This document shows, in pieces, positions 25,107 through 41,700 of a stretch of DNA of 64,000 bases. A model generated the notes under the pieces. It searched no databases and was not told the DNA's origin. It saw only the letters and a program-made list of their open reading frames with translations. The DNA lies in the NCBI GenBank assembly GCA_026184775.1, contig JANCYW010000011.1:310001-374000 (forward strand), written 5' to 3'. Source of the stretch: Cyanidium caldarium (lineage: Eukaryota > Rhodophyta > Bangiophyceae > Cyanidiales > Cyanidiaceae). Within the stretch, counting starts at the first letter, position 1. Each line of letters starts with the position of its first letter. A program made the translations under genes and the position numbers.

Positions 25107-26210
25107 ATGTTCACTTTGCAGGCACTGGGCGTGCCGGAGTTTCGCGCGCCCGCTCATCTGCGCAACGGGCACGTGCAGACGATCGGCGGGGCGGTGTTAC
25201 GCCAGGCGCCGGCTCGCTTTGCGTACACGTCGCGCATCCGGCTGGCCACTCCGGACGGTGACTGGTTCGAGGTGGACTGTGCGCTGCACGCGCTGGGTGC
25301 GAAAGAGGATGCGGTACGGCCGGCGGCGGTGGTGTTGCACGGGCTGGAGTCGTGCGCGCGCGGGCTGCAGTCGATGCACCTGGCCAACATGTTCTATCGG
25401 TGCTTGGGCGCGGATGTGTACGCGATGAACTTTCGGGGTTGTTCGGGTGCGCTCAACGCCACCCACAAGAGCTATCACCTCGGGGAGACGGCGGATCTGC
25501 AGCTGTTGATCGAGCGTCTGGTCGCCAACGACGATCGGCGCCGTCCGCGACCGCTGCTGCTGGCGGGATTCTCCCTCGGTGGCAACGTGATCGTCAAGTA
25601 TCTGGGCGAGTCGGCAGCGCACGCTCGACGACACGGCGTCGCGGCGGCCGCCGTCTACTGCGTGCCGTTCGATGCGGTGACCAGCCAGCCGGTGTTGGAC
25701 TCGGGACTGTTGAATCGATACGTGTACAGTCGGCGCTTCGTGCGCAGCATACAGCGCAAGATCGCCGCTCGGCATGCGGTGCTGGCCGCCACCGAACCGC
25801 CACCGTATGATCTGTCGCGAGTGCTGGCCGCGCGCACCATCGGCGAGATCGACGACGCCTACATTGCGCCCACGTACGGGTTTGCGGACCGTTGGGATTA
25901 CTACCGGCGGTGCAGTTGCGGCCAGTTCCTGGCGGCGGTGCGATCGCCGCTGCTGGTGGTGAACGCCTGGGACGATCCGTTCTACGACACCAGCGCCTAC
26001 CCCACCGCCGAGCAGCTGCACAACGAGCAGGTGCAGCTGGTGTACACGCAACACGGTGGCCATTGCGGTTTTCTGGAACGGTGGATGCCGGGCGCCCGAC
26101 CGCCGTGGGTGTGCGACTTGTTCGCCTCGTGGTTCCAGACCGCGTTGCAACGTTGGCGGAGAGACGGTGTAGAGGAGCCGAGCGAACCGGCGGCAATATT
26201 TGCGGAATGA
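25107..26210 (+). CDS. YheT/ABHD-type alpha/beta hydrolase
   Basis: A 367-residue hydrolase of the YheT/ABHD1-3 family. It opens with the family's FRAPAHLRNGHVQTIGG segment (about residues 11-27), has VVLHGLESC at the oxyanion region, MNFRGCSG, and the nucleophile elbow Gly-Phe-Ser-Leu-Gly-Gly with Ser at about 156. The Asp lies in VVNAWDDPF and the His in THGGHCGF near the C terminus. The length is usual. Known members act on esters or phospholipids; the substrate here is unknown. No signal peptide is seen. Divergent from the NEET gene, it ends 156 bases before the permuted tRNA. Confidence 0.9.
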   Translation: MFTLQALGVPEFRAPAHLRNGHVQTIGGAVLRQAPARFAYTSRIRLATPDGDWFEVDCALHALGAKEDAVRPAAVVLHGLESCARGLQSMHLANMFYRCLGADVYAMNFRGCSGALNATHKSYHLGETADLQLLIERLVANDDRRRPRPLLLAGFSLGGNVIVKYLGESAAHARRHGVAAAAVYCVPFDAVTSQPVLDSGLLNRYVYSRRFVRSIQRKIAARHAVLAATEPPPYDLSRVLAARTIGEIDDAYIAPTYGFADRWDYYRRCSCGQFLAAVRSPLLVVNAWDDPFYDTSAYPTAEQLHNEQVQLVYTQHGGHCGFLERWMPGARPPWVCDLFASWFQTALQRWRRDGVEEPSEPAAIFAE

Positions 26211-26366
26211 AGTGCAATTTGTACAGTTCGGTGAAAAAGGCCTCGTCTGCCTCCCGTTCTCTGCGTGCGGAACTCGATCCCTGCCCGGGAAGTGCTGGCG
26301 GAGGAATTTCGATCGCATTCATATACGAAATTGGTCACGTTCTCTTCGTCCCGCGGACAGCGCGCG

Positions 26367-26465
26367 ATGCTGAGGTCGCGTGTTCGATCCACGCCGGAGG
26401 CTCGTCGTGTGCAGAAACGCAACGCGATGCCTTCGTAGCTCAGTGGTAGCAGCGCAGCACTCGTA
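26367..26465 (+). tRNA. Circularly permuted tRNA-Thr(CGU) gene
   Basis: The 3' half precedes the 5' half. The 3' half (26367-26402) holds A38, anticodon-stem TGCTG, variable AGGTC, T-arm GCGTG-TTCGATC-CACGC, acceptor CGGAGGC and discriminator T. A 26-base spacer (26403-26428) follows. The 5' half (26429-26465) holds acceptor GCCTTCG, TA, D-arm, anticodon-stem CAGCA and loop CTCGTA with anticodon CGT. Joined 5' half to 3' half, all 7 acceptor pairs (one G-U), 5 anticodon-stem pairs and 5 T-stem pairs form; the D-stem has 3 pairs and one C-C mismatch. The B box thus lies upstream of the A box. The flanks fit a relaxed bulge-helix-bulge, with bulges TA|T and CG|A placing cleavage after 26465 and after 26366, between positions 37 and 38. 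No CCA is encoded. Confidence 0.92.
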
Positions 26466-26473
26466 TGCCTCGC

Positions 26474-26478
26474 TTTTT
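26474..26478 (+). terminator. Pol III T5 terminator of the permuted tRNA
   Basis: A run of five T begins 8 bases after the end of the tRNA 5' half, as expected for RNA polymerase III termination downstream of a permuted precursor. Confidence 0.8.
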
Positions 26479-26539
26479 GGGCTCGTGTCACGAGGGTCTT
26501 CTCGGTGGCGGCGCTCGTTGTGCCGAAAATGCGCATCTC

Positions 26540-27508
26540 CTACTCCGACGAGGTGTTTATCGGGCGCTTTCGAAACTCCAACGGTATGCGCCGGACGCGG
26601 TAGGACGCACCGCCGGCATCGGTACGTCGTCCATATCCGAAAATCGACAGCGCCTTGTGCCGCTCCTCCACTGTCGGCGCTCGCAGCGTGCCATCGGTGT
26701 CGCGCACCACCATGGTGCTCTGTGCGCGGCGTTGATGCTGCGGCACCGACTCGGACGGCCGCTCCACAAACAAGAAAGGCATGCGCGGCGGCGGCGGTCC
26801 GGGAAGCGATGCCGCGGCGGTATCGGTGCACCACCACGGCAACGCATCACCCTGTTCAAACAGTTCATCCTCCTCCTCCTCCTGCTGCTGCTGCTCACTG
26901 CCCTCCACCCGTGCGTGCGTCCGCACCTCCTCCCTGCCGCCCAGCATTTGCGACACCGCGCGTTGCTCGGCCTCTTCCGGCGTCTCATCGTCGGCCACTA
27001 CGTACTCCGCAAAGCGCGGTTTCATATCGCGCCAGGATGTCCGGGTGCGCTCGGCCGCCAGCGCCTCCGCCGCCTGCCGCGCCACCTCCTCGCGCCAGCT
27101 CGGTGCCTGACGGCGCCGCGACCTGGACGGCGCCGTCGCCGCGGCCGCAGTCGCCTCCATCATCTTCCGCTCCAGCTTCTTCCACTCCTCGGCCAGCGGT
27201 AGCACCTCCTTCTGCCACACCTCTTCGCCCACTTCCTCCCGCACCCGCGCCTCTATCGCTGCCAACTCCAGCACCGCCTCGATGCGCGCCGGCTCGTAGC
27301 GAAACTCCGCCGACAGCGCCTGCACCGTCCACCGCTGCGGATCCTCCGCATGCAATTGGCTGATGCGCTCCTGCGTCTCGAGGGGCACCCGACGGCGCCC
27401 GATCGGTGGTGTCGGCGGTCGTCGCGCCTCCCCGCTGACCGGGCGCCGTCGGGTGTTCCCGAACCGTGCCCGTCGCCACGCCCGCCAGGCCACTCCCAAG
27501 CGCTGCAT
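26540..27508 (-). CDS. Probable mitochondrial ribosomal protein, mS35/Bot1-like
   Basis: The ATG at 27508 opens a 322-residue protein whose first 25 residues (Met-Gln-Arg-Leu-Gly-Val-Ala-Trp-Arg-Ala-Trp-Arg-Arg...) form a textbook mitochondrial presequence. A segment about residues 50-100 (ERISQLHAEDPQRWTVQALSAEF-like, then RIEAVLEL) resembles the helix-turn-helix-like region of fungal Bot1/Rsm24 (mS35) small-subunit mitoribosomal proteins. The middle is charged with a Glu run and a Gln run, and the C terminus is basic with FGYGRR and RRIPLEFRKRP. The assignment is tentative. The frame extends upstream to 27748 only through GTG. It is convergent with the permuted tRNA. Confidence 0.5.
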   Translation of the reverse strand: MQRLGVAWRAWRRARFGNTRRRPVSGEARRPPTPPIGRRRVPLETQERISQLHAEDPQRWTVQALSAEFRYEPARIEAVLELAAIEARVREEVGEEVWQKEVLPLAEEWKKLERKMMEATAAAATAPSRSRRRQAPSWREEVARQAAEALAAERTRTSWRDMKPRFAEYVVADDETPEEAEQRAVSQMLGGREEVRTHARVEGSEQQQQEEEEDELFEQGDALPWWCTDTAAASLPGPPPPRMPFLFVERPSESVPQHQRRAQSTMVVRDTDGTLRAPTVEERHKALSIFGYGRRTDAGGASYRVRRIPLEFRKRPINTSSE

Positions 27509-38723: not shown

Positions 38724-41700
38724 ATGGAGGGTGAGGGTGGTCTCGACGGCGCTGCTGCGGCGTCGCGAGAGACAGAAACATCGGCGGCGGTGCCCACCGG
38801 GGAGAAGACGGCCGTCGCCGCCGAAGGAGCGGACGAGGCGGACGGAGCGGTGGCGGAAGATGAAGACACGGAGGAGTTGGAGCACAAGGTGACTACTTCC
38901 GGGGATGCTTCGGAGTTCTCGCTCGACGACGGGGAGGGTGGCAAGCCTGCCGAGCCAGTGCCTGGGTCGCCGCCTCGACAAACAACGCGCTCACGTTTCA
39001 TCGAAGACGAGGCCGAGGAAAGCGAGGCGGACGAGGCGGAACAGCGGTCTGGCGCCTCTGTTCGCGACAGTGAATCCGGAGAAGGAGAAGAGGGGGATGA
39101 GCGAGCATCCGCGGCCGACTCGTTTCTGGATGACCGCGACGACGCCCAGCTCGGAGATGCGGAGGCGGAGCGGCGTCGCAAGCGCCGGCGCGAGGCCCCC
39201 CCGGAGCTGGCCGAGGGCGACATCGAGCTGCTGCGGGAAGCGGGGGTGGACGTGCCGCCGTCGTCCGCCGTTGCTGCTGCGGGCGGCGGTGCTGGCCGGT
39301 TGCGGCGATTGAAACGATTGACCGACGCGGAGGAGGAGGAGGAGGCACCAGCGTCGGCTGCTGGCGATGAGGACGACGACGACGACGACGGGCAGGTTGG
39401 CGACACCCGCTCTCCGTTACCCGAGTCGATGTCGTCGTCGTCGTCGTCGTTGGACGAGTCCGACTACGAGGAGGACGAGTTCGAGGACTTTATCGACTAC
39501 GGCGAGGGCGAGCGGGCCCGTCGACAGCGTCGTCGAGCGCTGCGACGTCAACGTGCCGCGATGGCCGAGTCGTTGGTGGGCACCGCGTTTGCCGGCGTCG
39601 ACGTGGAGTCGCTGGGCTTGTTGCGCGAGCTGTTCGGCGAGCCGGCGGCGCTGCAAGATTACCGTGGCGAGGATGCGCTGTTCGAGGCCGACGAGGCGAA
39701 AGTGCGCGCCTGGCTGCGCTCCATCGGCATTGTCGACGATCGGCAAGTGCAGCGGGCACTGCAGCCGGCGGAAGGGGAGACAGAGCCGGAGACGACCGCC
39801 CCGGACAAGTCGACACGGCCGGAGCAGCTGACGCTTTTGGAGGAGATGTACGCCACCGCCCGCGATGATCAGATTCGGGACACCGACGTACCCGAGCGGC
39901 TGCAACTGCACTATGACCGCGGTGATGCGTTGCGGCCCGAAATGGACGAGAGCGACCTTCGGTACGAGGCCGAGTGGATTGCTACACACGGCTTTGCACG
40001 GCTGCCGGAGTTTGCCGCCCTCGACGCCACCGGCCAGAATGAGCTGCTGGACGGCATCGCATCGATGTTGCGCTTCGTGCGCGTGCACCACTACGACGTG
40101 CCTTACATCGCCATGTATTGCCGCGAGTATCTGGAGCCGCACCTGTTGCGGCCGTTGCCGGAAGCGCACGCCGCGCCGGACGCCCCGCCGGTGCCGCTGG
40201 AGGAGCCGTCGCGGTTTGTCGGCGACTGGCAGCACCTGTGGCGCGTGCTGGACTGGGACCGCAAGTACACGGAGTTTATGGCGCGCAAACGGCGGCTGAT
40301 GGATGCGTACGAGGAGCGTCACCAGGAGGAGCTGTTTGCGCTGGCCACCGGTGCCTTTAACCAGCAGATGCTGCGCGACGTCGAGCGGTACGCCCGGCTG
40401 CGAGCCAGTGTAGACCGAGCCGTGGCCGATGCCGACACCGCAACCGCCGACAACCATCGACCGCGCCGCCGCAACCGGCTGCATCACGCGGTGCAGACCG
40501 CCGCGCGGTATCGTCTCGATTTCGAGGCGCTGTACGGCTTGCGCTGTGGCGAATTGGCGGCCAACGTGCTGGCCGGTGGGGTGCGAGTCACCGAGCCGGC
40601 CGACCAGCCGTCGGCACCGCTGCCGCATCGGCTGCTGCCGGAGGCGTCCGATGCGGAATGCGCGCGGGCGCTGATGGCCCTGCGCTATCTGGCCGCGGCC
40701 GTCTACGCTAGCCATCCGCGATTGCGCAACGTGGTGCGTGGCCGTTTGCGGGAGCGCGCTCGTCTGCACGTGCATCCGAGCGATCGCGCCCGCACCGAAC
40801 TGGATGTGGTGGCGCCGCTGCGCGCCCACTGTTCCATCTCCGGCCTGCCGGTGGCCGCGCTGTCGCCGCTGGAGTACGCACAGGTGCTGTTGGCGCAACG
40901 GAGCGGATATGTGGAGGGCATCGAAGTGGCACTGGCCGAGGGCGACCGCCTGGAGCTGTGCGCGCTGTTTGAGGAGGCACTGCTGAGCGACAAGCTGTTC
41001 GAGGCGGCGCAGCAGTGGAATGCCGAGCGCAAACGCCTGATCAACGAGGTGATGGTGCCGGTGATGCTGCTGCGGCCACTGCTGGGCGAGTTGCAGGAGG
41101 CGCTAGCGGCCGAGGCCGTCGAGTCGCTGCGGGAGGCGGCGGTGCCACTGCTGGAACGGCAGCTGGGGGTGGGCGGCGTGGCCGCGGGCGAGAGCGGGCG
41201 CGGCGAACTGGCCGGCACCGCTGCCGGACGCGTGCTGGCGTTTGTGATCGGCACCGAGGCGGAGGTGAGCGCAGCGGCCGCGGCCAACACCCCGCAAGCG
41301 ACGCGACGGCGCAGTTCGGACGCGCTGCAGATCGTTGGGGTGGCGGTGGATGCGCGCGGCGAACCGCAAGACGCGGTTCGCATCGGCGCTGGCATGTGGT
41401 TGGACCGGGCGGCGGCGGCGGCGGCGGCGGTGACGTCAACGACACCGCTGCCGCCACCAGCGGTGCAACAGGCGCTGGAGGCGTTTATGGCCCGCCACGA
41501 ACCGTACGCTTGTGTGGCGGTGGGGTACGGCCCGAGTGGCGGCGTGACCTGTGCGCGCCTGCACGAGTATCTGCGGGAGATGGAGAGTCGGCGGCGTCTC
41601 CCAGCTGGTCATGCGGAGGCGGTCGCGCAGCACGAGCCCGAGATGCAGCGCCGGCTGGTGGCCATCGACGAGGACGTGGCGCGTCTATACGAGAAGACGC

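Follow-up and report, generated by a model that had tools for sequence, protein, structure and literature searches.

The locus analyzed here is a transfer RNA gene whose two halves lie in swapped order. The window, that is, the whole stretch of DNA under analysis, comprises 64,000 nucleotides of Cyanidium caldarium (contig JANCYW010000011.1, positions 310,001-374,000, forward strand). Positions 26367-26465 of this window hold a gene for tRNA-Thr(CGU), circularly permuted at position 37/38 and devoid of intron. With a probability of roughly 0.93, as judged from the sequence, this would be a working nuclear gene of type II, whose isoacceptor and junction agree with those of Thr(CGT) in Cyanidioschyzon merolae.

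The features of the locus are collected in Table 1. An earlier note had placed the 3' half upstream of the 5' half, with 26 bases in between; this order is read directly in the sequence and is confirmed by the match of a covariance model at the exact ends. The 3' half consists of the 3' strand of the anticodon stem, the variable loop, the T arm, the 3' strand of the acceptor stem and the discriminator base (A38; TGCTG at 39-43; AGGTC; GCGTG-TTCGATC-CACGC for the T arm; CGGAGGC at 66-72; T73). The 5' half carries the 5' strand of the acceptor stem (GCCTTCG), TA, the D arm and the 5' strand of the anticodon arm (CAGCA-CTCGTA), with the anticodon CGT at 26462-26464. Once rejoined at 37/38, the halves form a 73-base tRNA in which the CCA end is not encoded. 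Its stems are paired as the earlier note had counted them, at 7/7 positions in the acceptor stem, 5/5 in the T stem and 5/5 in the anticodon stem (17/17). The expected T33, GG of the D loop and TTC of the T loop, here within TTCGA, are present, as are T8 and, downstream, the announced T5 run. An additional C is present in the D arm, whose stem contains either three pairs or four pairs with one bulged C.

Table 1. Features of the permuted tRNA-Thr(CGU) locus (window positions) and the other permuted tRNA genes of the genome
Feature	Location	Strand	Remarks
TATA-like box (CATATA), putative RNA polymerase III promoter element	26320..26325	+	47 bases upstream of 3' half
Leader, can pair with trailer beside anticodon stem	26353..26366	+	constrained fold, duplex test
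tRNA 3' half, positions 38-73	26367..26402	+	sequence, covariance model, scanner
Intervening sequence, 26 bases	26403..26428	+	loop closing acceptor stem; can extend stem as hairpin
tRNA 5' half, positions 1-37	26429..26465	+	sequence, covariance model, scanner, pattern search
Trailer, can pair with leader	26466..26473	+	constrained fold, duplex test
T5 run, putative RNA polymerase III terminator	26474..26478	+	starts 8 bases past A37
Permuted Thr(AGT), type II, intervening 73 bases	contig 13, about 329.0-329.2 kb (L056/L051)	-	
Permuted Leu(CAG), type II, intervening 12 bases	contig 10, L044 720-798	-	TATA-like box, T6 run
Permuted Gly(CCC), type II, intervening 8 bases, 38-base T-loop intron at 55/56	contig 9:268270-268480 (L096)	-	read by eye
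Permuted iMet, type III (50/51), intervening 117 bases	among L087-L090		anticodon stem 5/5
Permuted Ala(TGC), type IV, intervening 75 bases	among L087-L090		G3:U70
Permuted Lys(TTT), type IV, intervening 71 bases	among L087-L090		
Permuted Arg(CCT), type IV, intervening 24 bases	among L087-L090		D-loop intron of about 46 bases, placed at ~14/15

The gene sits in a 329-base gap between two reading frames, in a window whose GC content is 64.6-70.0% (2-kb steps). Upstream, an alpha/beta hydrolase frame ends at 26210. Downstream, a minus-strand frame (26540-27508) has a weak, below-cut-off match to the mitochondrial ribosomal protein L20. Neither of two further frames that overlap or adjoin this gap, 25997-26536 (-) and 26465-27202 (+), matches a Pfam family. 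ARAGORN proposed a tRNA-Gly(ccc) at window positions 26030-26152; this call falls within the abhydrolase frame and is not believed.

ARAGORN and Rfam at gathering thresholds otherwise report no tRNA within the window, a silence that is expected at the Thr(CGU) locus since the gene is permuted. The training set of a covariance model of type II architecture (R1) left out the candidate and consisted of eight conventionally ordered tRNAs from the same genome; four lack introns, four had an anticodon-loop intron removed by hand, and all were rearranged in silico around random spacers of 22 bases. R1 covers the whole of 26367-26465 at 51 bits, with a rough E-value of 1.2e-12 over the window. The comparison was extended to 58 sources, namely the window and 57 of 84 genome loci, the other 27 of which overlap these. 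Thr(AGT) from contig 13, with 56.3 bits, and Thr(CGU) rank first and second, ahead of the permuted Leu(CAG) with 31.4 bits; the best normally ordered tRNA, itself a training sequence, reaches 29.3 bits. R1 missed the permuted Gly(CCC), whose T loop is interrupted by an intron. A second R1 match in the window, at 39876-39964 (-) with 17.7 bits, was rejected, as the alignment skips the T-arm columns and normally ordered tRNAs outscore it. A model of type IV architecture (R2) proved unspecific (22 loci; 11 of 15 matches at conventional or intron-containing genes, 4 at permuted ones) and was not used as evidence.

An untrained rule-based scanner finds one site on the plus strand of the window, Thr(CGU), and none on the minus strand; in 300 dinucleotide shuffles of the window it finds two loose matches and no strict one (all 17 pairs). 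The junction at 37/38 is supported by the covariance model as well as by the scanner. Folding energy gives no support: the minimum for the joined tRNA is -27.0, as against -24.3 +/- 3.0 for shuffles (n=2000), 18% of which are as low, and the cloverleaf itself has -22.3.

Around the junction, the bulges TA|T and CG|A flank a helix with three of four positions paired, as stated in the earlier note, which corresponds to a relaxed bulge-helix-bulge. By our own estimate such pairing is expected by chance about one time in five and is therefore weak evidence by itself. When the cloverleaf is imposed on the precursor, the last two leader bases, CG, form a bulge with A38 and additional leader-trailer pairing is present; the constrained fold has -47.9 and the unconstrained one is lower, at -52.4. 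Over eight permuted genes, leader-trailer pairing averages -10.7 vs. -8.7 on re-pairing (p 0.02). Three of the eight trailers pair best with their own leader, and that of Thr(CGU) is not among them.

The Thr(CGU) gene is not isolated in its genome. At least seven other permuted tRNA genes were found by searches that are not exhaustive (Table 1). The closest in design, Thr(AGT), shares with Thr(CGU) the 5' strand of the acceptor stem, the start of the D arm, the junction, the CG|A end of the leader and a T run. It differs by its longer intervening sequence (73 vs. 26 bases), its anticodon AGT and one mismatch in the anticodon stem. Leu(CAG) was noticed solely through adjoining a chance pattern match. 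Besides these permuted genes, a locus on contig 10 at ~219.0 kb (-) looks by eye like a tRNA-Ile(UAU) with three introns, in the D arm, the anticodon loop and the T arm, a pattern already described in C. merolae (PMC9602550). Four more loci (L017, L036, L038, and L020) also look intron-broken by eye: a Val(AAC) interrupted by an intron in the D arm, two Pro-like and one Arg(TCG)-like.

Signals of transcription accompany the permuted genes. A TATA-like motif, from a set chosen after the sequences were seen, occurs at -35 to -51 in 7/7 permuted genes examined, with a window background of 0.0175 per 140 bases. T5-T8 runs start 6-14 bases past the 5' fragment in the seven permuted genes other than Thr(CGU). 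To the permuted genes of C. merolae, taken as a set, the review of PMC3978253 ascribes a TATA-like box lying within 50 bp, a stretch of T and the lack of an encoded CCA, and the box and the T run of Thr(CGU) are positioned as reported there.

Comparison with C. merolae can be made gene by gene from Table 1 of the same review (PMC3978253). There, the data of Soma et al. (2007) list a permuted, intronless Thr(CGT) of type II, cut at 37/38, with an intervening sequence of 31 bp. The C. caldarium gene has the same isoacceptor and junction, also without intron, and an intervening sequence of 26 bases; the two are compared by architecture, not by sequence. Hence the question left by the earlier note, whether this isoacceptor was already catalogued, is answered as far as that table goes: a Thr(CGU) gene permuted at 37/38 is known from C. 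merolae, and the C. caldarium gene is real and not unprecedented. The 26 bases also fall inside the range of 1-74 given by the review for intervening sequences of permuted tRNA genes.

The type II genes tabulated for C. merolae are Thr(CGT), Thr(AGT), Leu(CAG), Gly(CCC) with an intron at 55/56 (two genes) and Gln(CTG). The others are iMet (type III), Ala(TGC), Lys(TTT) and Arg(CCT) with an intron at 14/15 (all type IV), and Leu(TAA) (type I). Eight of these ten isoacceptors were found permuted in C. caldarium; Leu(TAA) lay outside the specific searches, and Gln(CTG) was not found in the genome by similarity or by pattern. All eight have the junction type of their tabulated counterparts, and the two additional introns occupy the same positions. 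For types III and IV the junction bases were set in knowledge of the C. merolae positions, as was the placement of the Arg intron, and agreement at the level of the base is not independent for them; agreement in which arm is cut is independent of these positions. The two organisms belong to different genera, with GC contents of 65.7% in C. caldarium and 55.0% in C. merolae (PMC9812998). Common descent of their permuted genes is suggested by architecture, not by alignment or synteny.

Does the cell need this gene? ACG accounts for 71/187 Thr codons in the seven window genes with Pfam matches, and a reader of ACG is therefore required. The genome (8,787,356 bases, 20 contigs) was searched for another one. 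Used as a similarity query, the rejoined tRNA matches only the two halves at 26367-26465. The Rfam tRNA family, RF00005, gives 22 matches, 16 of them over the cut-off, and Thr is absent among the 20 to which an isoacceptor was given by ARAGORN and by eye (L022 and L023 stand outside these assignments). Two ARAGORN calls were re-read in the process, Ala(cgc) at L014 as Ser(CGA) and Ile(aat) at L015 as Tyr(GTA). A Thr 5'-half pattern with up to three mismatches occurs at two loci, Thr(CGU) and Thr(AGT), both permuted, with one match for a backwards control. Thus the unpermuted Thr(CGU) that the earlier note advised looking for was not found by similarity, RF00005 or 5'-half pattern, searches which a Thr gene with introns in its 5' half, or an intron-disrupted Thr(CGU) or a Thr(UGU) elsewhere, could escape.

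These results bear on the idea that the locus is a dead or relict copy, in which the arrangement is real and the tRNA is no longer made. The relaxed bulge-helix-bulge and the extra base in the D arm speak for it. However, all 17 pairs of the acceptor, T and anticodon stems are intact, promoter-like and terminator-like signals are in place, ACG is abundant, the searches above yielded no other Thr(CGU), and Thr(CGT) is permuted in C. merolae too (PMC3978253, Table 1). We consider a dead copy very unlikely.

Less likely still is a stable, unprocessed RNA that mimics a tRNA with the same strand order, like the bacterial YrlA (Y RNA-like). Among Rfam families, YrlA (RF02553) is indeed the one that best, though weakly, matches the locus (22.7 bits, E 0.015 when 401 bases are searched), and the alignment spans the T arm, a closed hairpin and the D arm in this order. 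This resemblance stems from the order of the arms, which is common to both, and the score is far under the gathering score of 69. Moreover, the anticodon loop of Thr(CGU) is a proper one, including T33 and CGT, and in its genome the gene is accompanied by a corresponding permuted Thr(AGT) and by six further isoacceptors so arranged. YrlA, unlike Thr(CGU), is not known to have an anticodon arm.

Finally, a juxtaposition of two tRNA halves by chance or by misassembly, for which the unusual order alone speaks, is scarcely credible given the match of a model trained without the candidate, the shuffle scan, the presence in a single assembly of eight genes so ordered, whose junction types are on record for C. 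merolae, and the published C. caldarium 063 E5 assembly of 8.79 Mbp, which is tabulated as 20 chromosomes with 20 telomere pairs (PMC9812998).

If Thr(CGU) is a working gene, its expression may follow the route known from C. merolae. By analogy with that alga, RNA polymerase III would start near the TATA-like box and terminate within the T5 run. The resulting linear precursor would fold into a cloverleaf in which the 26-base intervening loop closes the acceptor stem and both ends of the precursor come together in the anticodon loop to form a relaxed bulge-helix-bulge. A Sen2/Sen34(/Sen54) endonuclease would cut there, and a ligase, perhaps RtcB, would join the halves into a circle, as in C. 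merolae. RNase P and tRNase Z would then take out the intervening loop before CCA is added, if the order of processing is that of C. merolae. Genes for several of these proteins are recognizable in the genome. A Sen34 homologue has 8hmz_B as best PDB match (2.3e-18), a Sen2 homologue matches the EndA-like 5x89_A (2.3e-11) and the Sen2 chain 8iss_B (2e-10), and a Sen54 domain is detected. An RtcB ligase homologue on contig 12:117181-118494 (-), with 540 bits, is a candidate for closing the circular intermediate. The TATA-like box, the T5 run and the Sen2, Sen34, Sen54, and RtcB genes fit the known circular-intermediate route.

Permuted tRNA genes also occur in prasinophytes and the Bigelowiella nucleomorph (PMC3978253) and in Auxenochlorella (PMC12636532), with the same order of halves as in Thr(CGU). 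In the green algae and the nucleomorph the junction is most commonly 37/38, as here. All these genes belong to the green lineage, and those of prasinophytes and the nucleomorph, in the table rows examined, to other isoacceptors; in the main text of the review "CGT" appears once, for C. merolae (PMC3978253). No report of permuted tRNA genes in Cyanidium was found in a literature search outside which lay supplements and most subscription papers. The papers found there to contain both "permuted tRNA" and "Cyanidium" have one of the terms only in cited titles, and the word "tRNA" is absent from the main text of the 2023 genome paper (PMC9812998).

For the annotation of these genomes, the case is a warning, ARAGORN and Rfam having overlooked the Thr(CGU) gene in the window. 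Of most interest is that two genera share a conserved set of permuted genes. In the review cited above, permuted tRNA genes are called discontinuous and patchy, possibly with a separate origin in each lineage (PMC3978253). The same permuted isoacceptors and junctions in a second cyanidiophycean genus suggest a heritable trait, kept over a deep split. The split is called deep on the basis of the Sac1 protein of the window, which has 41% identity over 94% of its length to its nearest named relative, from Cyanidiococcus yangmingshanensis; a EukProt relative is 100% identical over 44% of the query. On balance we lean slightly toward the view that the common ancestor of Cyanidium and Cyanidioschyzon carried no fewer than eight permuted tRNA genes, whose junctions and, in two of them, extra introns were those seen today, and that none reverted in either line. 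Permutation would then act as a one-way ratchet or be maintained by selection, the circular precursor being one possible target, while the lengths of intervening sequences and introns are free to change. Whether permutation is maintained by selection or was simply never undone now becomes testable.
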